Below, piece after piece: positions 11,258 to 44,682 of a stretch of 45,114 bases of DNA. The position numbers were made by a program, and so were the translations under genes. Origin of the DNA: Paludibacteraceae bacterium. Lineage in GTDB: Bacteria; Bacteroidota; Bacteroidia; Bacteroidales; Paludibacteraceae. The stretch is taken from contig JAFNUD010000015.1 in assembly GCA_017384225.1 (NCBI GenBank), forward strand, positions 1-45,114. Direction: 5' to 3'. The notes under the pieces are model-generated. The model saw nothing but the letters and a program-made list of their open reading frames with translations. It searched no databases and had not been told where the DNA came from. Each line of letters opens with the position of its first letter. Within the stretch, counting starts at the first letter, position 1.

Positions 11258-11299
11258 GTGTAAAGTTGAGGGTGTAAAGTATAATGTGTAAAGGAAGGG
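11258..11299. repeat. Heptanucleotide array (intergenic)
   Basis: Six consecutive 7-base units: GTGTAAA, GTTGAGG, GTGTAAA, GTATAAT, GTGTAAA, GGAAGGG. Same period and style as the arrays found elsewhere in the window. It lies between the DUF486 gene start and the ttcA stop. Confidence 0.7.
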
Positions 11300-11364
11300 G
11301 ATGTTATCTCGCATTCGCTCGAATAATCAATTATATGGTGAGCGGAATTGTTGTTGGGTTTAAT

Positions 11365-12174
11365 TTATATTCTGTGTTTGTTATCACTTTTTACCTTTTG
11401 GGGTAGATAATCTGCCTTAATGTTTTCCATTGCTGCCCAGATGCTATCGCGCACGTTCGGGTTGAGTGCTTCGAGTTGCTTGATGAGTTGCTTCACCTCC
11501 GCACGACTGCTGACTTTCTCCAAAGGGCATAGTTTAACTTGTTTCTCGTAGTTACTCAAGAGAGCATAGTGCTCAATATCTTTTTCCTCTATTAAGCACA
11601 AGGGACGAATCATCTGAATAGGCATCTTCTCCATTTGTAAGAGTGGAGGAATCGTGCTAATGCTGCCTTGGAAAATTAAGTTCATCAGTAGTGTCTCCAC
11701 CAAATCATCTTTATGATGCCCCAAGGCAATCTTATTGCATCCTAATTCTTGTGCTACATCAAACAATGCCTTTCGCCGATACCATGAACACAAAAAACAG
11801 GGGTGCTTTTCTTTTGCCTCTTGCTTTTCACTTTTTCGCCTTTCGCCTCTCGCTTCATTGACTATCTCCGTGTCACGCACGACGAAAGGTACGCGTACAC
11901 GTGCGCAGAAGTTCTCCAGATAACTCAGGTCGGAGTGGTAGTCACGCTCTTTAATACGAATATGTACGGCAGTTACTTTGAAGCGAGGTACATATACCTG
12001 TGCGCGCTTACCCAAGAACTCTACTAACGCCAATGAGTCTTTGCCACCACTGAGTCCGATGAGAATATGATCGCCGTCGGCAATCAGTCCGTAGTCGGCA
12101 CATGCTTTGTGGAACTGTTTAGTCAGTCGTGATTGTAGGCGGATGAGTTCTATTTCTTGTGGAGTGCGTTGCAT
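11365..12174 (-). CDS. ttcA: TtcA-like tRNA 2-thiocytidine synthetase
   Basis: 269 residues. TtcA thiolates C32 of certain tRNAs using ATP and an Fe-S cluster. The PP-loop SGGKDS is near residues 44-49, followed by the CFLCSW segment (CxxC, near 125) expected for cluster binding; a further region LGHHKDDLVETLLMN matches TtcA. Between DTEIVNEA and HPCFLC there is an insert of about 15 residues (GERRKSEKQEAKEK), encoded by degenerate 7-base units at 11812-11855, which ordinary TtcA proteins lack. TilS is excluded by the CxxC pair and the motif order. No promoter was recognised; the upstream gap holds another heptamer array. Confidence 0.85.
   Translation of the reverse strand: MQRTPQEIELIRLQSRLTKQFHKACADYGLIADGDHILIGLSGGKDSLALVEFLGKRAQVYVPRFKVTAVHIRIKERDYHSDLSYLENFCARVRVPFVVRDTEIVNEARGERRKSEKQEAKEKHPCFLCSWYRRKALFDVAQELGCNKIALGHHKDDLVETLLMNLIFQGSISTIPPLLQMEKMPIQMIRPLCLIEEKDIEHYALLSNYEKQVKLCPLEKVSSRAEVKQLIKQLEALNPNVRDSIWAAMENIKADYLPQKVKSDNKHRI
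11812..11855 (-). repeat. Heptanucleotide array inside ttcA
   Basis: On the coding strand: GCGAGAG, GCGAAAG, GCGAAAAA (8), GTGAAAA, GCAAGAG, GCAAAAG. It is translated in frame as a charged GER/KSEK/EAKEK segment just before the CxxC motif. Confidence 0.75.
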
Positions 12175-12188
12175 GGGGGTATTTTTTT

Positions 12189-12223
12189 GGGCTATTGGTT
12201 ATGAGCAATAGGCTATGGGCTAT
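12189..12223. repeat. Heptanucleotide array upstream of ttcA
   Basis: Five 7-base units: GGCTATT, GGTTATG, AGCAATA, GGCTATG, GGCTATT. Intergenic, 15 bases before the ttcA start codon, on the 5' side of the gene. Confidence 0.75.
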
Positions 12224-12329
12224 TTGTGAGTGGATTTTGTTAAAAACGGTGCAAAGTTAGTGAAAAAATGGCAAATATTGCACAATTTTATAGAAAAATG
12301 CACTTTTTTTGCATTTTTTTCTCAAAATA

Positions 12330-12361
12330 TTTGGTCGGTTCAAAAAAAAGCAGTACCTTTG
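12330..12361 (+). promoter_or_regulatory. Strong promoter of the tRNA cluster
   Basis: TTTG at 12330-12333, 20-base spacer, TACCTTTG at 12354-12361. The 32 bases match the SRP RNA promoter at 27280-27311 except at one spacer position, which suggests a common stable-RNA promoter type. Confidence 0.85.
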
Positions 12362-12401
12362 CACCCGCTTTCGAAATGATAGCGATGTTCTTTAACATTC
12401 T

Positions 12402-12474: not shown

Positions 12475-12484
12475 CTATAGAAAT

Positions 12485-12512
12485 GAGCAGGACATAGTTC
12501 CTGCTTTTTTTC
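12485..12512 (+). terminator. Terminator after tRNA-Gly
   Basis: AGCAGGA at 12486-12492 pairs with TCCTGCT at 12499-12505, followed by a run of T residues. Confidence 0.8.
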
Positions 12513-16170: not shown

Positions 16171-16404
16171 TTAGCACAATAAATAAGGACTCTTGTGGGC
16201 TTTCGGTGGCTTTCAAATCACTCTCAAGTTGACTGCGGGCTAGGTGACCATTTCGGGACCACTGTAGCATATCTATGGGCTAGTTGTGTCTTATCTGTGG
16301 CTGTTAGGTTTCTAGTTTTCAGTTTTCGTTTTTGCCGAAGGGATACCGAACCCTTGCCGAAGGAGCGCTTGAATACGAGCATTGATACGAGAAGAATAAC
16401 AATA

Positions 16405-17386: not shown

Positions 17387-17443
17387 ATTGTTGAATTTTA
17401 ATTGTTTTTGATTAAGGAATAAGGAACAAGGAGCAAAGACTTT

Positions 17444-19646: not shown

Positions 19647-19725
19647 CGCCACTTTGTGGCTCGAAGATCGGCGCAGGGCGCCTGTAGATGGTAGATCGCT
19701 GCGCTGAAGATAGCAGTAGATAGAA
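19647..19725. repeat. Mini-hairpin string after rubrerythrin
   Basis: Successive short hairpins (GCCACTTTGTGGC, GGCGCAGGGCGCC and GCTGCGC) are joined by linkers containing GATC and TGTAGAT or TGAAGAT. The same grammar occurs inside dxs. Confidence 0.6.
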
Positions 19726-19761
19726 AGAAAGAGAGTGACAACAATCACTCTCTTTCTCTTT

Positions 19762-19880
19762 TATCCAATATCCGATACCCAATACCCAATACCCAATACC
19801 CAATATCCGATATCCGATACCCAATATCCGATACCCAATATCCGATACCCAATACCCGATACCCAATATCCAATACCCGA
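19762..19880. repeat. Long heptanucleotide array (17 units)
   Basis: Seventeen consecutive 7-base units of consensus TAYCCRA, without any length interruption: mainly TACCCAA, TATCCGA, TACCCGA and TATCCAA. It lies between the convergent rubrerythrin and metallo-hydrolase genes, ending two bases before the latter's stop. Confidence 0.95.
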
Positions 19881-19882
19881 AA

Positions 19883-20425
19883 TTACAGATACGGATTATA
19901 CATCTTCTCATGGGCAATCGTAGTGGGGTAGCCATGTCCAGGATACACCTGCGTGTCTTCGGGCAAGAGGACTAACTTCTTCAACGAACGAATCAACGTT
20001 GCCATATCGCCGCCTGGTAGGTCGGTCCTGCCAATAGACTCTTGAAAAAGCGTATCGCCCGTGAAAAGCAGTTTTTCAGCAGGCAGGTAATAGCAAACGC
20101 AATCCTCCTTGTGTCCGGGGGTAGTGATGACCTCAATATGACAGTCAGTGGAGGGCAGAGGCAAGACGCCCTCTTGGGGTTGAATGATAGGAATGAGGTT
20201 GTAGGTCTGTTGCAAAAAGTCTATGCCGCACACATGGTCGGGGTGCGCATGCGTGATGAGCAAAGCAACGGGGCGTAGGTTTTGCTTTGTGAGATACTCG
20301 GCAAAACGCTGCTGCTCGCGCTCCTCATACATACCTGCATCAATGATGATGGCTTGCCCCGCTTCATTGGAGAGTACATAGGTGCACTCGCGATAGGGAT
20401 TGAAATAAAATGTCTTTAATGTCAT
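19883..20425 (-). CDS. Metallo-beta-lactamase-fold hydrolase (glyoxalase II-like)
   Basis: 180 residues from the ATG at 20425 (MTLKTFYFNPYRE); a longer frame from 20452 would translate the heptamer repeat upstream and is rejected. Zinc ligands are THAHPDHVCG (HxHxDH), the His in TTPGHKED, the Asp in FTGDTLFQ and the His in YPGHGYPT. The family cleaves thioesters such as S-lactoylglutathione or acts on other esters; size and motifs fit the glyoxalase II-like subgroup. It follows rsmG in the same direction, with a repeat-filled 67-base gap. Confidence 0.85.
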   Translation of the reverse strand: MTLKTFYFNPYRECTYVLSNEAGQAIIIDAGMYEEREQQRFAEYLTKQNLRPVALLITHAHPDHVCGIDFLQQTYNLIPIIQPQEGVLPLPSTDCHIEVITTPGHKEDCVCYYLPAEKLLFTGDTLFQESIGRTDLPGGDMATLIRSLKKLVLLPEDTQVYPGHGYPTTIAHEKMYNPYL

Positions 20426-20440: not shown

Positions 20441-20490
20441 GCCTATAACCAATAGGTGCTAAGCACCGTCCAATAGCGTAGCGTCCTATA
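20441..20490. repeat. Heptanucleotide array interrupted by mini-hairpins
   Basis: GCCTATA, ACCAATA, then the 14-base hairpin GGTGCTAAGCACCG, TCCAATA, the palindromic GCGTAGCG, TCCTATA, ACCTACA. The hairpin length is exactly two units. This site combines the heptamer and mini-hairpin repeat styles. Confidence 0.65.
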
Positions 20491-21146: not shown

Positions 21147-21163
21147 ATATCCTTGCTTTAACC

Positions 21164-21198
21164 TATATCCAATACCCGATAACCGATAACCGACACCC
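21164..21198. repeat. Heptanucleotide array upstream of rsmG
   Basis: Units TATCCAA, TACCCGA, TAACCGA, TAACCGA, CACCCCT, between the yebC-family stop and the rsmG start. Confidence 0.65.
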
Positions 21199-27426: not shown

Positions 27427-28825
27427 GTCCCATTAGATTGTATAAATTGCCTTGATAGTCTATCCAAAGTTCTCCATTGATAAGCAATTTTGTGGCGGAT
27501 TGTTGAGGATGACTGATTTGGGGTAGGTGAGTAGCATGTTGGTATGCTTCCCATGCATCTGGAATACCATATCCGTATTGCTCATGTGGGGAGTGGTATC
27601 TATTAGCAGAACGGATAATCATTTCTCGGATTTCCATATTATTGGCATTAGGTATAGCTGACCATAGGCAGGCAGCCATACCTGCTATCAATGGACATGC
27701 AAAACTGGTTCCATTGCCTTTTACTACGCTGTTGTTTACTGGGTTAATAAGAGTTGTTTGATAGCCTACAGCACACACTTCGGGTTTTACTCTTCCGTCA
27801 GCAGTAGGTCCCCATGACGAGAAGGGAGCAATGCTATCATAGATATCTACTGCACCTACGGTGAGTATGCTATCTGCATCGGCAGGTGATGCTATATAGT
27901 GCCATGGCTTGTTGCCGTCGTTGCCAGCTGCTACAACCATCAACATACCTTTTCTGCTGGCAATAGTAGCTGCGCGACTACTGCGCGTGCTTTGCCCATC
28001 CATATCAGCATACGAGAGCGTAAATTGGTTGTCATCAAATATGGAATATCCTAATGATGTAGATACTATGTCCACACCCAATGAGTCGGCTAACTCAATG
28101 GCTGCTACCCAGTTGTCCATTTCTTTTGGACTTTCAGTCAAATTTTCTTCACTACGAATAAGGTAGTATTGTGCTTCGATGGCGGTACCATGGTAGTCAT
28201 CTGTGATGGCCGCTATGGTGCTGAAACATTTGCTACCATGATTGCCTGTTTCGCCCGTAATGCTATCTATGTCATCGGTCATATCATAGATGCCCAAAAT
28301 TCGTTTTTCTTCGTGTGCTGCTGAAAATGCACCGAGGGTATCTACATGTTGAAATCCGCCATCAATGATGCACATGGTGATACCTTCTCCTCTAAATCCA
28401 GCTTCGTGTAGCAGGTGTAGGTTGAGCAACTCTGTTTGTACGTCAGATGCTTTTTGTCCATTGTCTATAGCCCATTGTCCATTACTCATAGCCAATAGGT
28501 CATTCTTCATGGTCCATTGCTCTTTTTTTCTTGTCATTTCCACTTTCTCCACAAAACTCCATTGTGCAATAGTTTGTATGGTAATGGTATCTGCTTCGAT
28601 GGTGGCACCGTTCATCCATCTTGAGGTGTGGTAGATATGGCAACCTATCTTGCGCAGACTATCTATGTAGATAGGTGATACTGCATAGTCCATAGAGTCA
28701 AGGGCTATGTTGCGTTCGGCTCTTTTGTCGAGAGCTTGCTGACTGAGGGCTATATGCTCGCTACCTGCTTTGTCCGTAAACTGAACGAAGAACGCGAATA
28801 ATATGATAAGTAGTGGTGTTGCCAT
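27413..28825 (-). CDS. Secreted subtilisin-like serine protease (S8)
   Basis: 470 residues with a signal peptide (MATPLLIILFAFFVQF). Residues about 20-100 look like a propeptide. The catalytic Asp is in MCIIDGGF, the His in GNHGSKC and the Ser in GTSFACPLIAGMAA near 385. The family degrades proteins outside the cytoplasm. Between the propeptide and the catalytic domain (about residues 103-124) is a stretch, MSNGQWAIDNGQKAS and neighbours, encoded by a heptanucleotide array. The C-terminus (LYNLMGQKKG) resembles a cut-short sorting tail of Bacteroidota secreted proteins. The last codons overlap the SRP RNA terminator on the other strand. Confidence 0.88.
   Translation of the reverse strand: MATPLLIILFAFFVQFTDKAGSEHIALSQQALDKRAERNIALDSMDYAVSPIYIDSLRKIGCHIYHTSRWMNGATIEADTITIQTIAQWSFVEKVEMTRKKEQWTMKNDLLAMSNGQWAIDNGQKASDVQTELLNLHLLHEAGFRGEGITMCIIDGGFQHVDTLGAFSAAHEEKRILGIYDMTDDIDSITGETGNHGSKCFSTIAAITDDYHGTAIEAQYYLIRSEENLTESPKEMDNWVAAIELADSLGVDIVSTSLGYSIFDDNQFTLSYADMDGQSTRSSRAATIASRKGMLMVVAAGNDGNKPWHYIASPADADSILTVGAVDIYDSIAPFSSWGPTADGRVKPEVCAVGYQTTLINPVNNSVVKGNGTSFACPLIAGMAACLWSAIPNANNMEIREMIIRSANRYHSPHEQYGYGIPDAWEAYQHATHLPQISHPQQSATKLLINGELWIDYQGNLYNLMGQKKG
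28456..28518 (-). repeat. Heptanucleotide array inside the subtilase gene
   Basis: Nine 7-base units (plus strand): GTCCATT, GTCTATA, GCCCATT, GTCCATT, ACTCATA, GCCAATA, GGTCATT, CTTCATG, GTCCATT. In frame in the linker between propeptide and catalytic domain. Confidence 0.85.
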
Positions 28826-30310: not shown

Positions 30311-33246
30311 TATTTCATTAACCAGTTTATACTTGTTTTGTACAGTGTACTGAATTCATGCGCGCTCTCGAGCATGATACTCCAGCATAGTGTCTTGCTG
30401 CCGCCTTCGGCAGTTGCATCGTGCGCAATGGCTGCTGCCACGTTAGCCTCTGGGAAACGAGCCACTACTATACCACCTTCTGTTGGATAGATACCGTCAG
30501 GATTCTCGGTGTGAATCATCTCTTCGTTAGGCTCCATACGGAAAGTATAGACACCATTAGGCAGTTGACGCTCGATACGAATTTTGCCTGTGCGCGAAGT
30601 GTGGGTGCTACGGAATTCGTAGTGCAATTGATTTTTCGTGAAGGCTGCATCCTCTTTGCTTTGCATGTCGCTGGCGATATGTGCACCCGAGAGCAGGAGG
30701 CGACCACCGTGTTGTAGATAGTGGGTTAGTGCTTGTTGCAAGTTCGTTGGCATGCAGTGGAAGGATGTGTCGTTGCCCATGATATAGGTCTTTTGCTTGC
30801 CAAGGATAAGATCCACTGCATCGTATCCGGCAATAGTATCCAAAGCTGCTACGCTGGTGCTGACGTAGGAGTATCCCATCTCTGCAAGGATTTTACCGTG
30901 CATGGCAGGATAATCGAAGGTGTTGCCTACTGTAGGGTGGTTCATGTGGTCGCTGTAGCACATTCCCCAACCGCAGTTGTCGTCAGTCTTCCATTCGTTG
31001 CGGCTGTCGAAGTCATATACTTCACCGATATAGTTCACGCCCTTGCCATATGGCACAGCATGGCTGGCAGGACGGATACCGCCGTAGATACTATCGCTCC
31101 ACCATTCTGGACCGCTCACGCGATTAAAACCGTTCACAATAAGCACATTGCCTTTCTCTTCAGGAGCAATATATGCAGAGAGTACTTCGCTTCGGAAACT
31201 CAAACCACCTGCGTTACCTGCTGCTACACAGATGTCGTAGCGTGTGCCAGGAGTTGCAGTAAGGGTGTATGTCGGATTCGTAACGCGTACACCATTATCC
31301 CAATCACCATCGTTGATGCGTGTATATACCACGTAATAGGATGGAGTGGCAGTTGGTTCGAGAGCGTCCTCAGTTGGATTCCAAGAAACTTTGATCTTCT
31401 CGCCTATCGCCTCATCGCCTAATCGCCTCATCGCCATCTCTTTCACTGGCAGTGGTTGTACTGCGTACTCTGTACCATATTGCTCATGGATGAACTTCAA
31501 GAAGGATTTGTAAATCGCTCGTGAGATGGTGAAGCGCACGCGGGGGTCAAGACCATAGCGCATGTCGGTCATGTTTTGGTGAGAGAGCAACTCAAGCAGT
31601 ACTGCTGGCACTTTAGGGTGGCGTGCTTCAGCATAGGAAGAGTTGTTCAGTTGGCGGCGTGTCCACTCTGGTGCATATAGGGCACGCATGTCCTCTACGA
31701 TTTGCGTTTGCATATAGTCCGCGAGGTCGCGTGCTATGATACGACTCTTGCCTGTCGGGAATTTTTTATTTTTCTCATCGTCGTGATCCTTGTATATGAT
31801 AAGCGTACCCACCACTTCATCTTTCACACCAGCATCGGTGTGGAATGCGAGACTGGCGTGGAGTGGGATACCCAATCCGGGCTCGTTCGGGTTAGCCGCA
31901 CTACCACCTGCGAGGTAGTTCACCCAGATACCGCGAGCGGCGTAATCATCCACGTAGTCGTTCTTGCTGTCGGTGTAGTTGTAGATACTGTCTGGAATAC
32001 CCGAATATTGCATCCAATAGCGTGCTGCTTCTATGTAGCGTGGCAAACCGCTAGTGACTGCATTTGCTTGATTGGCAAGCAATTGCGTGCTGTCAATGAT
32101 AGCTGTGTCGCTCTTAGGTAGTTCTTTGGATGAAGGTACATTCTCAAAACTGTCGGGCTGTTTGTAGCGAGCTACACTACCCATACCGCCTCCAAATTTT
32201 ACCGCGTCGGTAGTGACGATCTCTTTGCCGTTGGTAGTAGCGGTCACGCTGACGTAGTTATTCGCTTTGTCGCTATCGAAACTGAAAGTGCCGATATATA
32301 CCCATGTACCACCACCCATCTTTTGATTGACTGCAAAAGTGGTCTTTTGCCCTTTGTGCACAACAGTGTATTGCGCTTTGCTGGTGCTATTAGGCAGGGT
32401 CTTGTAGCTCACATATACTGCGTAATCGCCCGCTGGGAGTGATGGGGTGTAGATAATCTCACCTTTGTTCTTCTCCTCGCATTTCACTTCGGCGGTGTAG
32501 CGACCTTGCTCAAATGGGTTCTCCCCTTCGAGTAGATGTGTGGTAGGGGTGGCCCAACCTGTGCCTTCACCGATAGCCCATAGACCTTTGATAGTAGCTT
32601 CGGAGTCATCTACTACTTGCTCGTAGGTCTGTGTGTCGCGTTCGCGTGGCTGCACCACTACGGCACCTGCGTTCTCAAGCATAGGCACCAGAAATGGCAT
32701 GGTGTAACTGCTTGTGTATAAATCTTCTACGGTGCTCCATACTTTGGCTCTTTGCCACCGCCAAGACTCTGTAGGTTGATGGAAATACTGTCCGTGACTA
32801 CCCCAAAGGGCAATATGTTTGCCGTCCAAACCTTGTTTGGCGGTGTATGGGCGTGAGGTGTTGGTCACCCATTGGGTAGTAGCGGGTAGGGTATAGCGCG
32901 CATTCTTAGCACGATGGCGATAGAGACTGGTGACCAATTCACCTATCTCATAACCATCGGTGTAGATGGTCACTTTGCCATTTTGGTGACCAAAGACCAT
33001 TTGGCTTACGAGTTTGCGAAGTTCCTGTATATCTTTGTCTGAAAGCGATATTACGCTCAACGCTTTGTTGGTATATATGGTCACATAACTATTTTTCACG
33101 CGAACATTGCTGATTTTCACGTTCTCTACGTATGCACGCTGGTGGACAAAGTGTGAAAGGGTATCTGACAGCGCTTGTTTGTCTAATGCCATAACGGGCA
33201 GGCAAATGATTGCTGCCAAAAGGATGACAATAAGTGTTCGTTTCAT
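30310..33246 (-). CDS. Secreted N-acetylmuramoyl-L-alanine amidase/golvesin-domain protein
   Basis: 978 residues with a signal peptide (MKRTLIVILLAAIICLPVMA). After an N-terminal region come a golvesin/xanthan-lyase-type beta module (about 235-350: FEQGRYTAEVKCEEKNKGEI, GDYAVYVSYKT) and an amidase_3-type catalytic domain (about 405-590: GIPLHASLAFHTDAG, VPAVLLELLSHQN with the Zn and Glu residues expected). A fibronectin-III-like domain (about 616-700) and a C-terminal domain of unknown role follow. It probably trims cell-wall peptides or is a surface hydrolase; annotation as 'xanthan lyase' is common for this architecture. Just before the FN3-like part, residues 603-616 (RRLGDEAIGEK) come from a heptamer/octamer array. 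Confidence 0.8.
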   Translation of the reverse strand: MKRTLIVILLAAIICLPVMALDKQALSDTLSHFVHQRAYVENVKISNVRVKNSYVTIYTNKALSVISLSDKDIQELRKLVSQMVFGHQNGKVTIYTDGYEIGELVTSLYRHRAKNARYTLPATTQWVTNTSRPYTAKQGLDGKHIALWGSHGQYFHQPTESWRWQRAKVWSTVEDLYTSSYTMPFLVPMLENAGAVVVQPRERDTQTYEQVVDDSEATIKGLWAIGEGTGWATPTTHLLEGENPFEQGRYTAEVKCEEKNKGEIIYTPSLPAGDYAVYVSYKTLPNSTSKAQYTVVHKGQKTTFAVNQKMGGGTWVYIGTFSFDSDKANNYVSVTATTNGKEIVTTDAVKFGGGMGSVARYKQPDSFENVPSSKELPKSDTAIIDSTQLLANQANAVTSGLPRYIEAARYWMQYSGIPDSIYNYTDSKNDYVDDYAARGIWVNYLAGGSAANPNEPGLGIPLHASLAFHTDAGVKDEVVGTLIIYKDHDDEKNKKFPTGKSRIIARDLADYMQTQIVEDMRALYAPEWTRRQLNNSSYAEARHPKVPAVLLELLSHQNMTDMRYGLDPRVRFTISRAIYKSFLKFIHEQYGTEYAVQPLPVKEMAMRRLGDEAIGEKIKVSWNPTEDALEPTATPSYYVVYTRINDGDWDNGVRVTNPTYTLTATPGTRYDICVAAGNAGGLSFRSEVLSAYIAPEEKGNVLIVNGFNRVSGPEWWSDSIYGGIRPASHAVPYGKGVNYIGEVYDFDSRNEWKTDDNCGWGMCYSDHMNHPTVGNTFDYPAMHGKILAEMGYSYVSTSVAALDTIAGYDAVDLILGKQKTYIMGNDTSFHCMPTNLQQALTHYLQHGGRLLLSGAHIASDMQSKEDAAFTKNQLHYEFRSTHTSRTGKIRIERQLPNGVYTFRMEPNEEMIHTENPDGIYPTEGGIVVARFPEANVAAAIAHDATAEGGSKTLCWSIMLESAHEFSTLYKTSINWLMK
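31397..31437 (-). repeat. Heptamer/octamer array inside the amidase gene
   Basis: Coding-strand units GGCGATGA, GGCGATTA, GGCGATGA, GGCGATA, GGCGAGAA at the boundary between amidase and FN3-like domains. Confidence 0.75.
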
Positions 33247-35462: not shown

Positions 35463-36643
35463 TTGTCGTAGATGATGAAGATCGTGAGAACGAAGGCGAT
35501 TTTATTATTGCAGCTGAAAAAATAACGCCTGAGAAAGTCAACTTCATGCTGCAGCATGGACGTGGTGTGCTTTGTGTGCCACTGCTGGAAACACGTTGTG
35601 CAGAGTTGGGATTGATACATCAGGTGGCTAACAACACATCTATGTTGGGCACACCTTTCACGGTGACGGTGGATAAGTTGGAGGGTTGTACTACAGGTGT
35701 TAGTGTAGAGGACCGTGCGGCTACCATTCGTGCGTTGGCTAATCCTGCATCTAAACCAGAGACGTTTGGTCGTCCTGGTCATATCAATCCGCTGTATGCG
35801 CAAGAGCGTGGTGTGTTGAAACGTGCAGGTCATACCGAGGCGGCAGTGGACTTGGCACGTTTAGCAGGATTGCAACCAGTGGCGGCGCTTATTGAGATTA
35901 TGAACGAGGATGGCACAATGGCGCGTATGCCTGATTTGGAGAAAGTGGCTGATAAATACGGACTTAGTTTGGTGTCTATCAAAGATTTGATTGCTTATCG
36001 TTTGAAGCATGATTCTCCTATATCCAATAGCCAATCACCCATTGCCAATAGTTTGGTAGAGCGTGGTGAGACGGTTAGTTTGCCTACGGCGTATGGTGAG
36101 TTTATGCTAACGCCTTTCCGCCAATTGAGCAATGGATTGGAGCATATCGTGTTGCAAAAGGGCGAATGGGCTGATGATGAGGCTATCTTGTGTCGTGTAC
36201 ACTCTTCCTGTATGACGGGCGATATATTTGGTTCTAAACGCTGCGAATGTGGTGAGCAATTGCACAAGGCCATGCAGATGGTGGAGAAAGAGGGGAAAGG
36301 CATTATTGTTTATCTCAACCAAGAAGGTCGCGGTATAGGACTGATGAATAAGATCAGAGCTTATAAGTTGCAAGAACAAGGTGAGGATACCGTGGAGGCA
36401 AACGTACATTTGGGCTTCCAACCCGATGAGCGCGACTATGGAATAGGTGCACAAATACTGCAACTGATGGGTGCAAAAAAGCTTCGACTCATGACCAACA
36501 ACCCAGTCAAAAGAGTAGGATTGGAAGCATTTGGCATAGAAATTGTAGAAAATATACCAATAGAGATAGCTCCTAATCCATATAATCTGCGATATATGCA
36601 GACGAAGAAGGAGAAAATGTATCACAATTTAAATTTGGTATGA
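35411..36643 (+). CDS. ribBA: Bifunctional DHBP synthase/GTP cyclohydrolase II (riboflavin)
   Basis: 410 residues. The N-terminal domain (1-200) makes 3,4-dihydroxy-2-butanone 4-phosphate from ribulose 5-phosphate ([19 protein letters not shown]). The C-terminal domain (about 215-400) opens the GTP ring ([20 protein letters not shown] with the Zn cysteines, [11 protein letters not shown]). Both feed flavin synthesis. The linker contains [13 protein letters not shown], encoded by four 7-base units (36024-36051) not expected in RibBA. The start overlaps the LptF/G gene by 52 bases and its stop overlaps the next start (ATGA), so translation is coupled. Confidence 0.93.
36024..36051 (+). repeat. 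Heptanucleotide array in the ribBA inter-domain linker
   Basis: Units CCAATAG, CCAATCA, CCCATTG, CCAATAG. In frame. Confidence 0.8.
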
Positions 36644-37989
36644 TTATGAAACGAATTCTTTTTTATGCCTTTATTGTAGGCGCTTTGCTTATGGTTCATA
36701 CCACAGCCTATGCCGATGAAACCGTTACAGTTACGGCTACCAACTCCGATATCTCTCAAGATCTCGATCTCAAGATGGTGGCTACACTTTTTGCTCAAGC
36801 CAAAGACCTTGAGGAGTTTGAGAAAGTACTGAATAATCCCGATTCCGCTTATTCTAACCTTGATCTCAATGGCGATGGTGATGTGGACTACTTGCGTGTA
36901 ATAGAAACGGCTGATCAAAATCGCCATTTAGTGGTTATACAAGCTGTTTTAGCTAAGGATATTTATCAAGATGTAGCTTCTATTTTTGTGGATAAAGATC
37001 CTGAGACAGAGTCTATCACGGTACAAATCATAGGTGATGAGTATATCTATGGTGCCAATTATATCATTGAGCCAGTCTATATTTATCGTCCTTATATCTA
37101 TGATTGGTTTTGGGGTCCATCATGGGTAGCATGGCATTCGCCATACTATTGGGATTATTGGCCAGGTTGGTGGCATCCTTACCATTGCATAGCACATCAT
37201 ATGTATTGGGAGCATATGTATTGGCATCACCATCATCATCCATATTGCTCGTATCGTACAGCTTATCACCACCACCCACATTATGCTAACATGCATCGTC
37301 CTGTGAGTCGTGTGGATTACGCTACTCGCCATCCAGAGCGTTCGTTTGCTGCGCGCAATGCTTCTACACGGATGACCAATGCGCGTGAATTGGATCGTAC
37401 ACGTCAAACTGCAATGCGAGCTGCTGCTGGTGCTACGCGTGCTGAAGCGTCAAGAACTGCTAATACACGTATCTCTGCTGCCAGCACACGCAACGCTACT
37501 TTTGGCAGCAGCAATGTTCGTACTGCTACTACCACCAACCGCGCTACTGCTACGACTTCACGCGCTTCTGCTACGACTTCTCGTACAGCTACCGCTACAC
37601 GAGGCAGTGCTACAGCTGCGTCTTCGCGTATTGCTACTACCGCTACACGAGGCAGTGCTACAGCTACACCTTCGCGTTCTGCTACTACTGTTACACGAGG
37701 CAGTGCTACAGCTACGCCTTCGCGTTCTGCTACTATGAATACTAGTCGGACAACGTCCAACTCCTCTGTTATGCGTTCGTCTAATAGTTCCGCTGTTCGT
37801 TCGTCAGGTAGTTCTGCAGTTCGTTCTTCAGGTACTACTGCTCCACGTACGTCCAGCAGTTCTGCAGTACGTTCATCCAGTAGTTATTCGCCTTCACGTT
37901 CTTCTGCTGGATATTCTTCAGGAGGCTCAATGCGTTCTTCCTCCTCGTCGTCTTCGTCTCGTGGAGCAAGTTCAGGTGCACGCAGATAA
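36640..37989 (+). CDS. Secreted His/Tyr/Trp-rich protein with long Ser/Thr/Ala/Arg tail
   Basis: 449 residues; the signal peptide starts at MKRILF (36646) or two codons earlier at 36640, where ATGA overlaps the ribBA stop. After the signal (to about 27) comes a domain with an acidic [13 protein letters not shown] loop, resembling a calcium-binding EF-hand-like turn. Residues 140-220 are packed with W, H and Y ([20 protein letters not shown]), and residues 235-449 are low complexity, made of repeated ATTSR, RGSAT, RSSxSSAVR words. The tail could be a disordered linker or a binding surface. Not recognised as a known enzyme. It converges with recQ, overlapping its stop by 18 bases. Confidence 0.7.
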
Positions 37990-39744
37990 TTTCGCTTTTA
38001 ACCTGCACACGTCGCAACTTCCGCAGGCATCAGCATCATGTTCGCCAAAATAGGATAGCAGTATTTGTGAGCGGCAATAGTGCTGATTATCTGCGTATTC
38101 AATCATTGCTTTGAGTTTATCAACATATTGTTGTTGATGCTTTTCGTATATATCTGTAGATAGGAAAATATCTGTTTGTCGTTCTTGCGTAAAGGTAAAC
38201 GTGTTTTCTACGCTGCGTGGGATATAGGTCAGTATATTGCGTTGTGCGAGAGATACGAATAGTTCGTGCAATTGGTGTGATGACCATTCGGTGCATAGAT
38301 TGTCGAAGTGGATATATTGCAGTTCGGTAAAGATACCCGTGTACTTGCGCATGAGTGTTTCCAATAGTTGCAATTGTGACTGACTGAGTCCGTAGTCGCT
38401 AATCTCGCGACGTGGCACACGGATCATAGCCCGTGGGTGTATTTCTTGTTCCTCTTGAAAATGGATATATCCTGCTTGTGTAAGGAGGTGTAGGGCAGCG
38501 TATGTCTGAAGCAAAGGTAGATGCATGATTCGGCATAAGTCGTTGATATGCAGTATGTAGGTGTTTCCTAATCCACTACCTGCACCAATGCCCAAAAAGT
38601 CGCAAGTCTTATGATAGACATTCTCTATAAACGCTTTGGGTGGATAGTTGTCTGCTACGCGTTTGCGTGCTTTCGCTTTATCGGTAGTTGGATCGTAGAG
38701 CAATACAGCAAAGGCTTGGCGTTCGTCTCGTCCTGCGCGTCCCGCTTCCTGAAAATAGGCTTCTATGGTATCGGGCAAGTCGTGGTGAATCACAATCCGT
38801 ACATCGGACTTGTCAATACCCATGCCAAAGGCGTTAGTGGCTACGATGACACGTGTGGAGGGCAATTGACGATTGGCGGTTGGTGATGGAGTATGCTCCC
38901 ACCTTTTCCATGCTTCCTGCTTTTCGGTGCGCTCTTTGGATGGGAGGCCTGCATGGTAGAAGTCAGCAGATATGCCTTGCTCGTTGAGGTAGGCGGCTAT
39001 CTCTTGTGAGCGTTGACGGTTGCGTACATATACAATAGCACTACCTGGCACTCGATTGAGAATATGCACAATCTCGTCTGCTTTTTTATTGGTTTGACGC
39101 ACCACATAACTGATGTTTGGTCGGGCGAAACTCTTGCGCAGCACATTCTTCTCGCGAAATGCCAATCGTTCTTGTATATCATCCACCACATCGGGCGTGG
39201 CTGTGGCTGTAAGTGCCAAGATAGGCACTTCTGGTCTTTCGCCTTTCGCCTCTCGCCTGATAACCTCTCGTATCTCCGCTATCTTTAGATAACTAGGACG
39301 GAAATCATATCCCCATTGTGAGATGCAGTGTGCTTCATCTACGGCGATGAGGCAGATAGGCAGACGGCTTAGTCGCTCGCGAAATTCTTCTGACTCTAAT
39401 CGTTCGGGAGATACATAGAGGAAGCGATAAGGTCCCCACATACAATTGTCCAGTGCCACTTTTTGTTGGTCGTAGCTCATGCCACTATAGATAGCAGCAG
39501 CACGTATATCGCGCTTTTTGAGGTTTTCCACTTGGTCTTTCATCAAGGCAATCAGTGGCGTGATTACCAGACACAAACCGCCCATGACCAGCGTAGGTAT
39601 CTGAAAACACAGGCTCTTGCCTCCTCCTGTAGGCATCAATGCCAGCGTGTCGTGACCTGCAAGTACAGATTGAATAATTTCCGCCTGTAAGGGACGGAAA
39701 TTATCGTATCCATAATATGTTTTTAGTATTTCCTGTGCGGTCAT
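37972..39744 (-). CDS. recQ: ATP-dependent DNA helicase RecQ
   Basis: 590 residues from the ATG at 39744 (MTAQEILKTYYGYDNFRPLQ); the longer frame from 39864 runs into trkH and is rejected. RecQ unwinds 3'-tailed DNA in recombination repair. Walker A is LMPTGGGKS, the DEAH box is AVDEAHCISQWG, and NAFGMGIDKSDVR is typical. The zinc cysteines (CGSCDVC) stand at the very C-terminus, after a winged-helix-like region, without an HRDC domain. Two in-frame heptamer inserts occur near residues 162-169 and 283-294. Last gene of the leftward dxs-trkA-trkH-recQ set. Confidence 0.9.
   Translation of the reverse strand: MTAQEILKTYYGYDNFRPLQAEIIQSVLAGHDTLALMPTGGGKSLCFQIPTLVMGGLCLVITPLIALMKDQVENLKKRDIRAAAIYSGMSYDQQKVALDNCMWGPYRFLYVSPERLESEEFRERLSRLPICLIAVDEAHCISQWGYDFRPSYLKIAEIREVIRREAKGERPEVPILALTATATPDVVDDIQERLAFREKNVLRKSFARPNISYVVRQTNKKADEIVHILNRVPGSAIVYVRNRQRSQEIAAYLNEQGISADFYHAGLPSKERTEKQEAWKRWEHTPSPTANRQLPSTRVIVATNAFGMGIDKSDVRIVIHHDLPDTIEAYFQEAGRAGRDERQAFAVLLYDPTTDKAKARKRVADNYPPKAFIENVYHKTCDFLGIGAGSGLGNTYILHINDLCRIMHLPLLQTYAALHLLTQAGYIHFQEEQEIHPRAMIRVPRREISDYGLSQSQLQLLETLMRKYTGIFTELQYIHFDNLCTEWSSHQLHELFVSLAQRNILTYIPRSVENTFTFTQERQTDIFLSTDIYEKHQQQYVDKLKAMIEYADNQHYCRSQILLSYFGEHDADACGSCDVCRLKAKLSACT
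38861..38895 (-). repeat. Heptanucleotide array in recQ, site 1
   Basis: Plus-strand units GGCAATT, GACGATT, GGCGGTT, GGTGATG, GAGTATG, encoding HTPSPTANRQLPS just before the conserved VIVATNAFGMGID. Confidence 0.8.
39236..39258 (-). repeat. Heptanucleotide array in recQ, site 2
   Basis: Units of CTTTC GC, CTTTCGC, CTCTCGC type on the plus strand, encoding RREAKGERPE between two helicase motifs. Confidence 0.65.
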
Positions 39745-41246: not shown

Positions 41247-42577
41247 TTGAAGAATTTCTCTAATTGTCTAATTACTTGGTTCTTACAGAAAACCACCACT
41301 TGGTCGCCTTGCAGTATTTGTGTGTCGCCATTGACGAGGATACCTTCTCCTGCACGGACTATGGCACCGATATTAGCATCAGCAGGTAGGCGCATGTCGC
41401 GTATTTTACCTTTGGTGATGCGGCTACCTTCTTCTGCCATAAATTCCACTATCTCGGCATCAGCGGTCGTGAGGTTGCGCACATTCAATACACTGGCATC
41501 CAGTAGCATCTGATAGATGTAGGATGCTGCGATTGTCTTTTTGTTGAGTACGGTACCTATATCCAGACCTTCTGCCATGGTGATATAGTCGATATTCTCC
41601 ACCTCGGCAATAGTTTTTTTCACGCCAAAGCGTTGTGCTGCCAGACAGGCGAATATATTGGCTTCGCTACTGTCGGTGACTGCTACAAACGCATCTACAT
41701 CCTCTATGCCCTCATCTTTCAGTACGGCCATATCGCTTCCGTCAGCATTGATAATCAGAGCGTTGTTGATTTTTTCGCTGAGGAGATAGCAGTGCTCGCG
41801 GTCAGATTCTAATATCTTGATATTGAGATCGTCTGGCAAATTTTGTACAGTCTTTTGTGCTATCTTGGATCCGCCAAAAAACATGATATTTTTGATATCT
41901 CGTTTTTGCTTGCCCATTTGTTCGCGCAGCACTTTTTTGTTTTCGCTTGTACATACGGCATAAACCATATCATTTGCCATAATCTCATCTTGTCCTCCTG
42001 GAATAATGGTTTCTTGTCCGCGTTTAATGGCTACTACGCGATAGAGTCCATGGCTGAAGTAGCCAGAAATGAATTTTTGTCCGATGACCTCAGCGCCTTC
42101 CCGTACTTTCACTACACACAACTCCAATGCTCCATTGCATAGGGTGAGGTGATAGCGCATCCAATTGGTCTTGAGCGAAGCAGTAATCTCTTGTGCTGCT
42201 AATAGTTCGGGGTAGATGAGGTGGTTGAGTCCCATCTGCTCAAAAAGACGTTTATTTTCGGGTAAGAGGTACTCGTAGTTATCGATTCGTGCCAATGTCC
42301 TTTTGGCTCCTAATTGGTTGGCAAGCAGACAGGCGGTGATATTTTCGTGTTCGGATGGTGTGACTGCTATAAAGAGATCCACATCCTTCACGCCTATGCT
42401 TGTCAGGTCGTGTATCGAACTGGGACTTCCCACTTTGGTTAGCAGGTCGTAGTTGGCATCTAGATCGCCGAGTCGATCTTGACGCTCATCAATGAGACTA
42501 ATGTCCATATCCTCGCGCGAGAGGAGTTTCGCCAAATGGCGTCCTACTGCTCCAGCGCCTGCAATAATGATTCGCAT
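41243..42577 (-). CDS. trkA: Trk potassium uptake regulatory protein TrkA
   Basis: 444 residues. Two tandem RCK units: Rossmann motifs IIIAGAGAVGRHLAKLL at the start and IMFFGGSKIAQKTVQNL near 235, each followed by a RCK_C part. Binds NAD(H)/ATP and controls TrkH. The gene overlaps dxs by 34 bases and trkH by four, so translation of the three is probably coupled. Confidence 0.95.
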   Translation of the reverse strand: MRIIIAGAGAVGRHLAKLLSREDMDISLIDERQDRLGDLDANYDLLTKVGSPSSIHDLTSIGVKDVDLFIAVTPSEHENITACLLANQLGAKRTLARIDNYEYLLPENKRLFEQMGLNHLIYPELLAAQEITASLKTNWMRYHLTLCNGALELCVVKVREGAEVIGQKFISGYFSHGLYRVVAIKRGQETIIPGGQDEIMANDMVYAVCTSENKKVLREQMGKQKRDIKNIMFFGGSKIAQKTVQNLPDDLNIKILESDREHCYLLSEKINNALIINADGSDMAVLKDEGIEDVDAFVAVTDSSEANIFACLAAQRFGVKKTIAEVENIDYITMAEGLDIGTVLNKKTIAASYIYQMLLDASVLNVRNLTTADAEIVEFMAEEGSRITKGKIRDMRLPADANIGAIVRAGEGILVNGDTQILQGDQVVVFCKNQVIRQLEKFFK

Positions 42578-44682
42578 ATACCTTCTTTATCTAATTTTAG
42601 TAGGTGATACAATTCTTTCGTACTTCCGTGCTCCACGAACTGGTCGTTCACGCCCAAACGAATAACCCTCGGCTGTCTTCCAACTACAGGCGTAGCCAAT
42701 CTTCCATCTTCAAGGCTGCAAGCCGATCTATTAACTACATACTCCGCCACAGCGCTACCCAGCCCGCCATTGATGACGCCATCTTCCACGGTCACGATAG
42801 TGTCAAAGTTTTCAATTACTTCTCGGAGTATATCTTCGTCGATTGGCTTCAGCCATCGCATATCGTAATGCGCTATTCCCTCTACAGGCGAAGCCGATCT
42901 TCCATCTTCAAGGCTGCAAGCCGATCTTCCATCTTCAAGGCTGCAAGCCGATCTTCCACCTAAACTATCTATCGCCTCAGCCACGGTATTTCCAATCGCA
43001 CCTATACTCAGCACAGCCATTCTCTTGCCTCTCGCCTCATCGCCTGAGCGGGGTCCCCGACAAACTTCGTGAGTTTGTGGGGTGCTCTCTCGCCTCATCG
43101 CCTCTCTTAGGCACACTCCCTTTCCAATAGCCCATTGCCCATCGCCCATCGCCAATTGCCCATCGCCCATATCCGCTTTTCCTCTCGGATAGCGTATTGC
43201 TATTGGTCCGTTGTGGTCTTGTGCCAGGCGCATCATCTCTCTCAGGTCGTCGGCTGTCATTGGTGCGCCAATGACCATGTTGGGTATAGGACGCAGGTAT
43301 GCCAAGTCGAGCAATCCGTGGTGCGTAGCACCATCGTTGCCTACTATACCTGCTCGGTCGATGCAGAACACTACGGGTAGTTTGGGCAGTGCCACATCGT
43401 GTATGATATTGTCGTATGCACGCTGTAAGAAACTGGAGTAGATATTGCAGTAAGGTCTCATGCCTGCTTTGGCGAGTCCTGCGGAGAAGGTTACGGCGTG
43501 TCCTTCGGCGATGCCGACATCAAATACGCGTTCGGGCAATTCTTTCTGCATGATGTTCATGCTGCATCCGCTGGGCATAGCGGGTGTGATACCTACCACG
43601 CGCTTGTCTTCTTTCGCCAGTTCGAGTAGTTGCTCGCCAAACACCTCTTGCCATAATTGTTCCTGCCTTTCACCTTTCACCTTTAACCTTTCACCTGTTT
43701 CTATGAGGAACTCTCCAGGGGCGTGCCAAGTTGTTTGGTCGTTTTCGGCAGGTTCGTATCCTTTGCCTTTTTTGGTGATTATATGTAGTACTTTCGGACC
43801 TTGGTAGTCTTTTATTTCGTTGAATATGCGTACTAATTCCAGTACGTCGTGTCCATCGGCGGGACCGAAGTATCGGATATTGAGTCCTTGGAAAATGTTG
43901 TTTCCTTGTTTGGTGAGCAGTGCTTTGATGTTATTGGTAATGCGTAGTACGCGTCCTTTGTTGTCGTCGTTGAGAATATGCAATTTGCGTGCCACTCTGT
44001 ATCCCCACCAGCGCCAGCGGTTGTATCGTTCGCTGGTTGTTATGTCCACGAGGTATTGTGTGAATCCGCCTTTGATGGGGTCGATGGCCATATTGTTGTC
44101 ATTCAGTACGATGAGTAGGTTGTTTTTGAGCATAGAGGTGTTGTTGAGTCCTTCAAATGCTAATCCGCCTGTCATTGCTCCATCGCCGATGATTGCCACT
44201 ACTCTTCGCTTCTCACCGCTGCTGACTACAGGCGTAGCCGAACTACAGGGCTCTGCCCGATCTACAGCCGCTTCAGCGGCGATCTCTTCCCTAATGGCAA
44301 TTCCCAACGCAGCGGATATGCTATTGCTGGCATGTCCTGCGATGAAGGCATCGTATTCGCTTTCGGCGGGGGTAGGGAAGGGGGCTATTCCTTTGAATTG
44401 TCGGTTGGTATGGAATCGTTCTCGTCTGCCTGTTAGTATTTTGTGTGCGTATGCTTGGTGTCCCACATCCCATACGAGTTGGTCGTTGGGTGTGTCAAAT
44501 ACATAGTGTAGTGCCACGGTGAGTTCTACGGTTCCAAGCGATGAACCCAAGTGACCAGGATTTTTACTCAGTTGTTGAATAATGAAATCTCTCACTTCGT
44601 CGCACACTTGTGGTAATGCTTCCTCAGGCAGCTTTTTCAAGTCGCTGGGGTAGTTGATGGTATGTAAATATTTGTAGTCCAT
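42544..44682 (-). CDS. dxs: 1-deoxy-D-xylulose-5-phosphate synthase, extended by repeat inserts
   Basis: 712 residues against the usual ~620-640. It condenses pyruvate and glyceraldehyde 3-phosphate with thiamine diphosphate, the first step of the MEP isoprenoid pathway. Motifs: DVGHQAYAHKILTGR, the TPP site GDGAMTGG, and DRAGIVGNDGATHHG. The extra residues fall in loops and are encoded by repeats: DRAEPCSSATPVV (about 131-152), ERLKVKGERQ (about 329-340), MGDGQLAMGDGQWAIG (about 503-519), the segment STPQTHEVCRGPRSG (about 524-553), RSACSLEDG repeats (about 574-600), and RSACSLEDGRLATPVV (about 651-666). All are in frame, and every core motif is intact. It heads the leftward operon. Confidence 0.93.
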   Translation of the reverse strand: MDYKYLHTINYPSDLKKLPEEALPQVCDEVRDFIIQQLSKNPGHLGSSLGTVELTVALHYVFDTPNDQLVWDVGHQAYAHKILTGRRERFHTNRQFKGIAPFPTPAESEYDAFIAGHASNSISAALGIAIREEIAAEAAVDRAEPCSSATPVVSSGEKRRVVAIIGDGAMTGGLAFEGLNNTSMLKNNLLIVLNDNNMAIDPIKGGFTQYLVDITTSERYNRWRWWGYRVARKLHILNDDNKGRVLRITNNIKALLTKQGNNIFQGLNIRYFGPADGHDVLELVRIFNEIKDYQGPKVLHIITKKGKGYEPAENDQTTWHAPGEFLIETGERLKVKGERQEQLWQEVFGEQLLELAKEDKRVVGITPAMPSGCSMNIMQKELPERVFDVGIAEGHAVTFSAGLAKAGMRPYCNIYSSFLQRAYDNIIHDVALPKLPVVFCIDRAGIVGNDGATHHGLLDLAYLRPIPNMVIGAPMTADDLREMMRLAQDHNGPIAIRYPRGKADMGDGQLAMGDGQWAIGKGVCLREAMRRESTPQTHEVCRGPRSGDEARGKRMAVLSIGAIGNTVAEAIDSLGGRSACSLEDGRSACSLEDGRSASPVEGIAHYDMRWLKPIDEDILREVIENFDTIVTVEDGVINGGLGSAVAEYVVNRSACSLEDGRLATPVVGRQPRVIRLGVNDQFVEHGSTKELYHLLKLDKEGICESLLQALEQ
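42684..42729 (-). repeat. Mini-hairpin string in dxs, site 1
   Basis: Plus strand: CTACA, hairpin GGCGTAGCC, linker AATCTTCCATCTTCAA, hairpin GGCTGCAAGCC, GATC. Confidence 0.75.
42882..42960 (-). repeat. Mini-hairpin string in dxs, site 2
   Basis: CTACA, GGCGAAGCC, then two exact 27-base units built from linker GATCTTCCATCTTCAA and hairpin GGCTGCAAGCC. Encodes tandem RSACSLEDG. Confidence 0.85.
43021..43110 (-). repeat. Hairpin insert with flanking 16-bp direct repeats in dxs
   Basis: A 16-bp word TCTCGCCTCATCGCCT occurs at 43030-43045 and 43088-43103. Between them is a hairpin with CCCC/GGGG and ACAAACT/AGTTTGT arms (43055-43066 and 43072-43082). The repeats are themselves heptamer-like. 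Confidence 0.75.
43124..43172 (-). repeat. Heptanucleotide array in dxs, site 1
   Basis: Seven units: CCAATAG, CCCATTG, CCCATCG, CCCATCG, CCAATTG, CCCATCG, CCCATAT. Encodes MGDGQLAMGDGQWAIG in frame. Confidence 0.9.
43661..43695 (-). repeat. Heptanucleotide array in dxs, site 2
   Basis: Five units: TCCTGCC, TTTCACC, TTTCACC, TTTAACC, TTTCACC. Encodes GERLKVKGERQ. Confidence 0.85.
44225..44290 (-). repeat. Mini-hairpin string in dxs, site 3
   Basis: Three hairpins with different stems, GGCGTAGCC, GGGCTCTGCCC and GCCGCTTCAGCGGC, each preceded by CTACA and followed by GA(TC). Encodes DRAEPCSSATPVV. Confidence 0.85.

Follow-up and report, generated by a model that had tools for sequence, protein, structure and literature searches.

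Tandem arrays of 7-base units lie both between and within the genes of a stretch of Paludibacteraceae bacterium DNA (45,114 nt, contig JAFNUD010000015.1 of assembly GCA_017384225.1; hereafter the window), which raises the question of how a step that is not a multiple of three comes to occupy open reading frames and how such units spread. Heptamer arrays are known from cyanobacteria, Xanthomonas, Beggiatoaceae and five Bacteroidetes genomes, including Paludibacter, and the published accounts treat them mainly as intergenic features, regulatory sites or quadruplex elements (PMC4679880; PMC4692102). The heptamer arrays of the window and its relatives are real, occur in as well as between genes and stand far above chance. 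This gut bacterial genus offers a natural experiment in which numerous words share one step length and a typical unit number, close species show fast turnover and essential genes show a clear reading-frame filter.

Reality of the Period-7 Signal

The original prediction named fifteen heptamer sites in the window, one of them a split site in dxs that was tested as two stretches, giving 16 stretches in all. Each was compared with Markov-resampled copies of the window that kept its dinucleotide composition, 60 of them for lag 7 and 30 for lag 8; the measure was how many lag-7 segments at least as good would be expected in 45 kb. Eight of the fifteen exceed chance at lag 7, with expectations of 0.0 for the ttcA array, 0 for the arrays at 19762, 21164, dxs 43124 and dxs 43661, 0.017 for both the subtilase array and the recQ array at 39236, and 0.17 for the ribBA array. 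The amidase site proved to be of period 8 (expectation 0.0 at lag 8 and 24 at lag 7), and six sites are non-significant alone at lag 7: 12189 (1.2), recQ 38861 (3.0), 11258 and 14226 (8.8 each), 20441-20490 (70.5) and dxs 43030-43103, where the better half gives 3.0, the other half holds no lag-7 segment and both give 9.9 at lag 8. Across the window 10 lag-7 segments score at least 10, where the resampled copies average 0.43; the same threshold is reached by 2 segments at lag 11, by 1 at lag 8 and by none at lags 5, 10 and 13. Two of the ten lag-7 segments (16308-16333 and 17410-17439) are additional to the sites first listed (Table 1).

The picture of strictly heptameric arrays needs amendment, as 8-mers and mixed arrays exist. 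The count of 17 units at 19762-19880 is correct for the degenerate word TAYCCRA, the units differing in their Y and R columns, and some of the words first taken as different consensus sequences read as strand or rotation variants of one family. Just before this array, at about 19724-19760, a terminator-like inverted repeat was seen by eye.

Table 1. Repeat arrays in the window, with the strand of each and the residues concerned where an array is coding.
Feature	Position	Strand	Remarks
Longest array, 17 units TAYCCRA, intergenic	19762..19880	+	unit differences in Y and R columns, for the 16/17 units listed
TAACCGA/TACCCGA array, intergenic	21156..21198	+	lag-7 expectation 0
dxs linker array AGGTGAA AGGTTAA AGGTGAA AGGTGAA AGG	43666..43696	-	residues 329-339, between DXP_synthase_N and Transket_pyr
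dxs array, ATGGGCG/ATTGGCG units	43124..43170	-	residues 505-520, after Transket_pyr
dxs mixed 7/8-mer GAGGCGAT-like remnants	43022..43104	-	interrupted by palindromic insert, about 43048-43087; weak at lag 7 and lag 8
recQ array AGGCGAG AGGCGAA AGGCGAA AG	39236..39258	-	residues 203-210
recQ degenerate insert	38861..38895	-	residues 324-335; lag-7 signal weak alone
ribBA linker array	36016..36049	+	residues 202-213, between DHBP_synthase and GTP_cyclohydro2
ttcA array, GGCGAAA/AGGCGAG units	11811..11856	-	residues 107-122, length-variable segment of PP-loop domain
Subtilase array, about 9 units degenerate TNGYCMA	28454..28517	-	residues 103-124, before Peptidase_S8 domain
Amidase-like protein, period-8 AGGCGATG-like array	31400..31435	-	residues 604-616, flanked by weak matches to Amidase_3 and fn3
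TAGCCNA array, intergenic	12189..12223	-	weak alone; 1.2 expected by chance
CCTTATT/CCTTGTT array, intergenic	17410..17439	-	lag-7 segment; not in original prediction
AAAACTG-like units, short intergenic array	16308..16333	-	lag-7 segment; not in original prediction

The same step dominates among relatives, these being records titled Paludibacteraceae or Bacteroidales and, by title, nearly all metagenome bins. In 40 genus loci near dxs, lag-7 arrays occur at 27.0 per 100 kb, with 0.7 at lag 5, 2.2 at lag 6, 3.5 at lag 8, 2.2 at lag 10, 5.7 at lag 11 and 0 at lag 13. The loci were drawn from genomes with the best dxs matches, most of the DNA coming from a single region around dxs in each genome, together with recQ, and own-genome stretches were chosen where matches to a repeat word already occurred. 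Outwards from the genus the array density fades, arrays being present also in other genera of the family (outgroup loci 20 + 20 + 20, hand-picked from match tables). A survey of 96 dxs genes, including the 80 nearest records, some perhaps outside the genus, yielded 114 lag-7 arrays, almost all in four loops, against 0-3 in ten codon-order shuffles; at lags 4, 5, 6 and 13 there were 0 arrays and at lag 8 there were 21. A single dxs loop carries different 7-mers in different species, the conserved GER codons are sometimes part of the array, and the same loops hold arrays in bins of many different project names.

Placement in Proteins and Reading Frame

By simple ORF calls coding arrays outnumber noncoding ones (259 vs 102, with 28/389 unclassed), at a lower density (1.64 vs 6.71 per 10 kb). 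Noncoding arrays reach 10.4 per 10 kb of gap between tandem genes, 5.0 between divergent and 3.0 between convergent ones. Coding arrays had been expected in linkers or loops, the label “loop” being based on domain limits and alignment gaps, and those at dxs 328, dxs 504, ribBA, the subtilase and the amidase are indeed next to Pfam domains or between two of them, the matches to amidase and fn3 falling under Pfam’s cut-offs. The ttcA array and both recQ arrays, on the other hand, are inside a domain, in segments of variable length among relatives. Compared with most of 29 relatives, the recQ array at 39236..39258 amounts to about 8 additional residues and the one at 38861 is an insertion, where some relatives hold different inserts, one of them an 8-mer array; at the ttcA array the alignments of genomes G007 and G009 break. 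The dxs linker array is identical in one relative (L196) and replaced by other 7-mers in other species, and the loop of residues 505-520 holds an 8-mer array in L196. Loops in relatives are often without periodicity, and no case was found of the same residues being encoded without period 7.

The claim that coding arrays stay in frame was supported: among inserts facing an empty or near-empty relative 68/73 coding ones are multiples of three, against 13/30 noncoding ones. Frame-keeping length is expected for any surviving indel in a working gene. The commonest length class is 28-34 nt, with 156/279 coding arrays and, more weakly, 38/112 noncoding ones; 127/279 coding arrays measure 30-33 nt and 3 measure 29 nt, while among noncoding arrays there is no sharp 30-nt peak (23/112 at 30-33 nt). 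Insert and length counts use a stricter trim (112/499 arrays, vs 135 under a looser trim). Because coding arrays are typically about 30 nt long, that is 4x7+2 nt or ten codons, the puzzle of the frame is largely resolved.

Words, Phase and Turnover

The 389 arrays contain 158 distinct canonical words, and 8-mers and 11-mers are present too among the sampled arrays. Three consecutive AAAGTCR units occur in 62/121 genus genomes and are absent from 59/121, reaching 73 positions (overlaps counted) on both strands in genome G161, against a reversed control with 0 in 110/121 genomes and a maximum of 5. In the own genome three TAYCCRA units match at 26 positions, overlaps included, vs 1 for the reversed pattern; across the 121 genomes there are 84 matches in 14 genomes and 172 in 29 for the reversed word, which is itself a heptamer word in the genus and hence unusable as a genus-wide control. 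In 36 thinned genomes with 67 arrays, the same unit is found in arrays more than 1 kb apart in 12/151 same-genome pairs (11 on the same strand) vs 16/2037 between-genome pairs. Within one genome, the same polymorphic columns appear at several loci (9 arrays, Y variable in 7 and R in 6).

Phase is shared as well. Among 84 pairs of arrays from one genome that have the same unit but unlike flanks, the start phase coincides in 27, the end phase in 32 and both in 11, with 12, 12 and 1.7 expected; some phase-sharing pairs at different loci also share an internal deviation, the pairs are not independent, and the shared phase could stem in part from the edge procedure or from old duplications. A larger test gave 293 and 331 of 894 pairs vs 128 expected, and the smaller one is preferred because the larger could have counted one gene position in several species.

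Turnover is fast among close relatives, the closest genome pairs being about 95-96% identical in dxs. In 13 close pairs, 57 assessable array observations (a site in both sisters being counted from both sides) comprise 29 with the same unit, 6 with another unit and 22 with the array absent. Of the 29 same-unit orthologous arrays 26 are of equal length; one differs by 17 and two by 7 nt, the latter being one event counted twice (L104/L169). The words AGTCGAA and AGGTGAA differ in all units at once with the four-unit form kept. In arrays of at least 42 nt, unit similarity is 0.852 at lag 7 and has dropped to 0.754 by lag 28.

A weak common syntax runs through the units (4.01 bits vs 3.48 +- 0.09 for random 7-mers). 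In GC-matched tests of the units, purine asymmetry and CpG gave no signal, min(G,C) fell a little below expectation (z -2.8) and 4-bp palindromes showed no enrichment (0.293 vs 0.337 expected). It was noticed post hoc that, among arrays of 29-33 nt with a single deviation, 26/46 have it 12-14 bases from one end.

Comparison with Known Repeats

Cyanobacterial STRR are short tandem heptanucleotides. Compared by description only, they share this form with the present arrays, which differ in often lying in housekeeping genes at frame-keeping length; head-to-tail, near-identical 7-base units above chance, as in STRR and long simple sequence repeats, were found here, whereas a mostly intergenic placement was not. 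The Rickettsia palindromic elements are small and dispersed and sit in frame in protein genes where the fold tolerates them; the in-frame inserts described here resemble them in this respect, yet consist of heptamers in direct repeat, about 30 nt in all, and not of longer palindromes.

Three STRR heptanucleotides are mentioned for Calothrix (PMC4692102). The GGGNATC and GGGGA(T/C)T heptamers of Xanthomonas and Nostoc are described as G-rich, quadruplex-forming and mostly intergenic, with intragenic shares of 11% and 7% in xanthomonads and 68% intergenic in Nostoc (Rehm et al., 2015; PMC4692102). As far as that description goes, GGGNATC repeats and the present arrays are alike in their head-to-tail order, genome-wide occurrence, four-unit preference and the bias of noncoding copies towards co-directional gene gaps; they differ in the number of words, in G-runs (three-G quadruplex motif in 9/389 arrays here and in 2/198 of 28-35 nt; two-G runs in 89), in the excess of coding copies and in the rarer gaps, which are divergent there and convergent here (PMC4692102). 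Selection for G-quadruplexes was set aside on the scarcity of the three-G motif. The TAACTGA repeats of Beggiatoaceae, cyanobacteria and five Bacteroidetes are reported, for the main genome, to lie mostly immediately upstream of start codons, with some in coding sequence and with indels between two close strains mostly in 7-nt steps (MacGregor, 2015; PMC4679880). They too are heptamer direct repeats, partly coding, and are known in the family relative Paludibacter propionicigenes, but they are described as one word, whereas here the words are many, linkers in genes are occupied and the modules are short, with about four units each (PMC4679880). The new part is the frequent placement in housekeeping genes at frame-keeping length. 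A four-unit preference in arrays mostly without three-G runs calls for an explanation other than the published one, and since close relatives differ in array content, the spread of short tandem repeats and the seven-base step become directly testable.

Origin of the Arrays

The explanation preferred here, at about even confidence, is that the arrays are dispersed elements of about four heptamers, spread by template switching and frame-filtered in genes. The data show that the arrays and their period are real, that words are dispersed within genomes, that arrays turn over between close species, that lengths in genes keep the frame and that linkers or variable segments are preferred. A module would comprise about four heptamers, or about 30 nt in genes, and modules would form many-copy families within one genome, with family-specific words and phases. 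The best guess for the spread is that new copies form by template switching, associated with replication, into an existing array; arrays would supply repeated microhomology for the switch, and a few target bases would be replaced. Unit slippage, mutation and loss would bring later change. In genes a copy would survive only if it is open, has a net length divisible by three and lies where it is tolerated, a filter through which the ten-codon form would remain.

The one-unit difference between L104 and L169, the drop of unit similarity with distance, which slippage also predicts, the large number of distinct words and the GER codons within some dxs arrays all fit growth of each array by slippage from a local 7-base seed, as in ordinary long simple sequence repeats, without dispersal. 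Such growth does not account for one word at many loci, for words with the same polymorphic columns at several loci per genome or for phases and internal deviations common to different loci, and it gives no reason for 7 over 5, 10 or 13; it is judged rather unlikely. That the arrays are functional DNA or RNA sites, selected for periodic contacts in protein binding or regulation, appears improbable: the density between tandem genes, the reported preference of Xanthomonas and Nostoc heptamers for aligned genes (PMC4692102) and the weak common syntax point that way, while the predominance of coding over noncoding arrays, the variation of the word at one site between species, with 28/57 observations lost or swapped in close relatives, and the rarity of the quadruplex motif argue against it.

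A dedicated machine with a 7-base step, whether an RNA-templated or a terminal synthesis enzyme, could write the modules with a constant period and variable sequence, and the difference in every unit at once between AGTCGAA and AGGTGAA, together with the post hoc position of the deviation, would suit it. Against this, RVT_1 was found in 15/61 genomes, many of them incomplete, being present in the array-rich G015 and G018 but not detected in the own genome (G000) or in G035, which has the richest stretch, and 8-mers and 11-mers occur as well; such a machine is likewise improbable. It is similarly a long shot that a dedicated, sequence-agnostic activity with a 7-base step makes modules of about 30 nt, rewriting all four words in concert, keeping four units, the inner deviation and fixed ends, and adding ten-codon inserts to housekeeping proteins; if true, these would rank with the smallest known mobile units of the interspersed kind. 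Chance or assembly artefact, for which the reliance on metagenome bins and the six individually weak sites might be cited, is almost certainly not the explanation, as shuffled sequence yields almost no arrays, the same dxs loops carry them in bins of many projects and other genera of the family have them.

Carriers and Flanks

A reverse-transcriptase writer was set aside on the inconsistent presence of RVT_1 in array-rich genomes. Plasmids gave no match for window positions 19700-20000, a search in which the BLAST low-complexity filter may mask the array. Viral contigs contain 29 stretches with four AGTCRAA units and 7 with four GGTKAAA units; in 20/29 of the former the repeat continues (TCG) past the final AG, and phages are provisionally not taken as carriers because these 20 run past the usual end point in the genus. 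Transposition with target-site duplication, as by transposon-derived miniature elements, was rejected, flanking direct repeats of at least 3 nt being at shuffle level (5/184 arrays of 29-33 nt vs 4.3 +- 2.0). Just outside the array ends there is an excess of T, with 133 observed vs 106 expected.

The heptamer signal in the window and its genome

Arrays of short units arranged head to tail, mostly heptamers, were scored as lag-7 self-match segments against resampled sequence. The draft genome comprises 2.17 Mb in 140 contigs (88% complete), the window being one of these, and 384,755 of its bases, including the window, were sampled (21,880 read N). At a threshold of 10, lag 7 gave 54 segments, including 10 N runs which are present at every lag, while one resampled set returned just these 10. 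Outside the N runs this leaves 44 segments against none. With N excluded the density is 12.1 per 100 kb, in a sample biased by stretches selected for prior pattern-search matches. Fifteen heptamer sites had been proposed in the window. Eight of them stand out clearly at period 7, one, in the amidase gene, has period 8, and the other six fall short of significance individually. By reading, their supposedly different consensus words reduce to a small number of families when strand and rotation are allowed for, namely TAYCCRA/TAGCCNA, CTTTCRC (equivalent to GCGAAAG) and CTTTACA.

Heptamer repeats are already described as TAACTGA heptamers of Beggiatoaceae, cyanobacteria and five Bacteroidetes, Paludibacter among them (PMC4679880), and as G-rich heptamers, mostly intergenic, with four units preferred (PMC4692102). 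Searches of one open-licence library yielded no report of heptamer arrays in Paludibacteraceae housekeeping genes.

Distribution across relatives

The 80 records nearest to the window's dxs protein carry Bacteroidales or Paludibacteraceae titles, with the name Candidatus Colicola in three and Paludibacter sp. in one; nearly all are metagenome bins, and samples from the gut of ruminants or horses are the source of many. Around dxs, lag-7 arrays occur at 27.0 per 100 kb in the genus (40 loci), falling to 5.9 among the family's other genera, 3.1 among the order's other families and 1.5 in the remainder of the phylum (20 loci each). The corresponding densities are 3.5, 2.4, 1.0 and 1.8 at lag 8, 5.7, 1.9, 0.5 and 1.0 at lag 11, and 0, 0.8, 0.3 and 0.5 at lag 13. 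Arrays of period 11 (examples in the table) likewise reach a higher density in the genus sample than in that from elsewhere in the phylum, some containing around four units. At least one lag-7 array is present in 32 of the 40 genus loci and none in eight, with 17 inside 20 kb of one locus (L126). Two loci from outside the genus, L216 and L240, harbor very long composite heptamer arrays, along which the word shifts as the 7-base phase is maintained. A contig classed as viral (L331) contains 15 lag-7 arrays within 14.4 kb.

Dispersed word families

Same-genus genomes other than the window's own numbered 60 in one set and 120 in the word searches (121 with own). Three consecutive AAAGTCR units are found in 62 of the 121, on both strands and at up to 73 positions (relative G161), with the reversed pattern, used as control, absent from 110. 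Of 393 genomes sampled from the order, 3 contain the four-unit form, G161 of this genus being one. In the own genome, triple TAYCCRA matches at 26 positions, overlaps counted, and its reverse at one. Across the genus it gives 84 matches in 14 of 121 genomes against 172 in 29 for the reverse (summed counts), which is itself a heptamer word and hence no valid control there. The same two columns vary across nine TAYCCRA arrays of the own-genome sample (Y in seven, R in six). Among 67 arrays from 36 genomes thinned for relatedness, a unit was shared by 12 of 151 same-genome pairs more than 1 kb apart, 11 on the same strand, compared with 16 of 2037 between-genome pairs.

Loops of dxs and recQ

The window, genus loci and nearest records provided 96 distinct dxs genes, duplicates dropped. 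At a threshold of 9 these contain 114 lag-7 arrays, distributed over 60 genes, and 21 at lag 8, with none at lags 4, 5, 6 or 13; ten codon-order shuffles gave 0–3 at lag 7. Four variable segments (window residues ca. 130–159, 330–339, 490–559 and 570–599) hold 113, the remaining one lying near residue 650. One linker carries GGTGAAA in the window, and GGGTTAC, GGAAAAC, AGTCGAA, GGAATCA and CAATGGA in relatives L092, L094, L100, L107 and L126, respectively. A similar pattern is seen in recQ, where 30 genes contain nine lag-7 and four lag-8 arrays confined to a few points, and the window's inserts are absent from most relatives. For five arrays the proposed placement in linkers or loops agrees with Pfam limits, those at dxs 328 and 504 and in ribBA, subtilase and amidase lying between or beside domains.

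Other repeats occupy dxs as well. L128 has a near-identical copy of the palindromic insert GGGGTCCCCGACAAACTTCGTGAGTTTGTGGGGTGC at the same place as in the window, though the genes are only about 77% identical. L196 lacks the extra AAGCCGATCTTCCATCTTCAAGGCTGC copies of the fourth loop, a 54-nt in-frame difference from the window. Short palindromic repeats, e.g. GACCGGCTTCGCCTGACAGA and GATCGGCTTCGCCTGTAGATGG, sit in dxs loops or at relatives' heptamer-array sites in L092, L132, L159, L162 and L164.

Array length and reading frame

Array length peaks at 30–32 nt (125 of 379), as in the four-unit modules AGTCGAA AGTCAAA AGTCGAA AGTCGAA AG and CTGACGG CTGACAG CTGACGG CTGACGG CT. Coding arrays of 29, 30, 31, 32 and 33 nt number 3, 35, 36, 34 and 22; noncoding lengths are broadly spread. 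For 112 of 499 arrays of periods 7 and 8, some relative had the site empty or nearly so (14 bases or fewer between flanks), and 103 of the 112 were classed. Among coding cases 68 of 73 inserts have a length divisible by three, compared with 13 of 30 among noncoding ones, bearing out the claim that coding arrays remain in frame and confirming them as tolerated inserts in open genes. The same is expected of every indel that survives in a functional gene. That seven is not divisible by three had appeared puzzling, to which about four heptamers plus two bases, i.e. thirty bases or ten codons, offers a simple answer.

Turnover and proposed mechanism of spread

Thirteen close pairs provided 109 array observations, 57 anchored on both sides (sites with arrays in both sisters being counted from each side). 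The sister site held the same unit in 29 of these, another unit in six and no array in 22. L104 and L169 differ by a single unit in one array, and at some sites where one species has a heptamer array, its sister carries a palindromic repeat.

Within single genomes, arrays of the same unit that lie at separate loci and have dissimilar flanks formed 84 pairs, in which phase is common at the start in 27, the end in 32 and both in 11 (expected 12, 12 and 1.7). A less strict test covering all genomes gives a concordant result, but may take in one gene position across species. L182 and L155 each carry near-identical 30-mers at two loci with an internal deviation in common. Direct repeats of at least 3 nt are not in excess at array flanks, the arrays have little quadruplex capacity, and a search for reverse transcriptase came up empty in 46 of 61 genomes, among them the own genome and that with the richest stretch (G035). 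The favoured explanation is spread by template-switch copying, in which new copies would arise from existing arrays and subsequently be altered by slippage, mutation and loss, with a filter probably acting on copies surviving inside genes.

Other repeats

Coordinates of repeats other than simple heptamer arrays
Locus	Position	Repeat	Setting
Window	463-917	nine-base repeats (GATGGTAAA-like); collagen-like look by eye	ORF 180-2162
Window	22036-22381	42-bp unit, about eight copies	within ORF 21955-23901
Window	37540-37885	overlapping 21-, 24- and 48-bp repeats	near end of ORF 36640-37989
Window	42891-42958	tandem 27-bp unit AAGCCGATCTTCCATCTTCAAGGCTGC	dxs, fourth loop
Window	ca. 43048-43087	palindromic insert GGGGTCCCCGACAAACTTCGTGAGTTTGTGGGGTGC amid 8-mer units	dxs
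L091	9376-9436	period 11	genus locus
L096	9719-9762	period 11	genus locus
L100	13651-13721	period 11	genus locus
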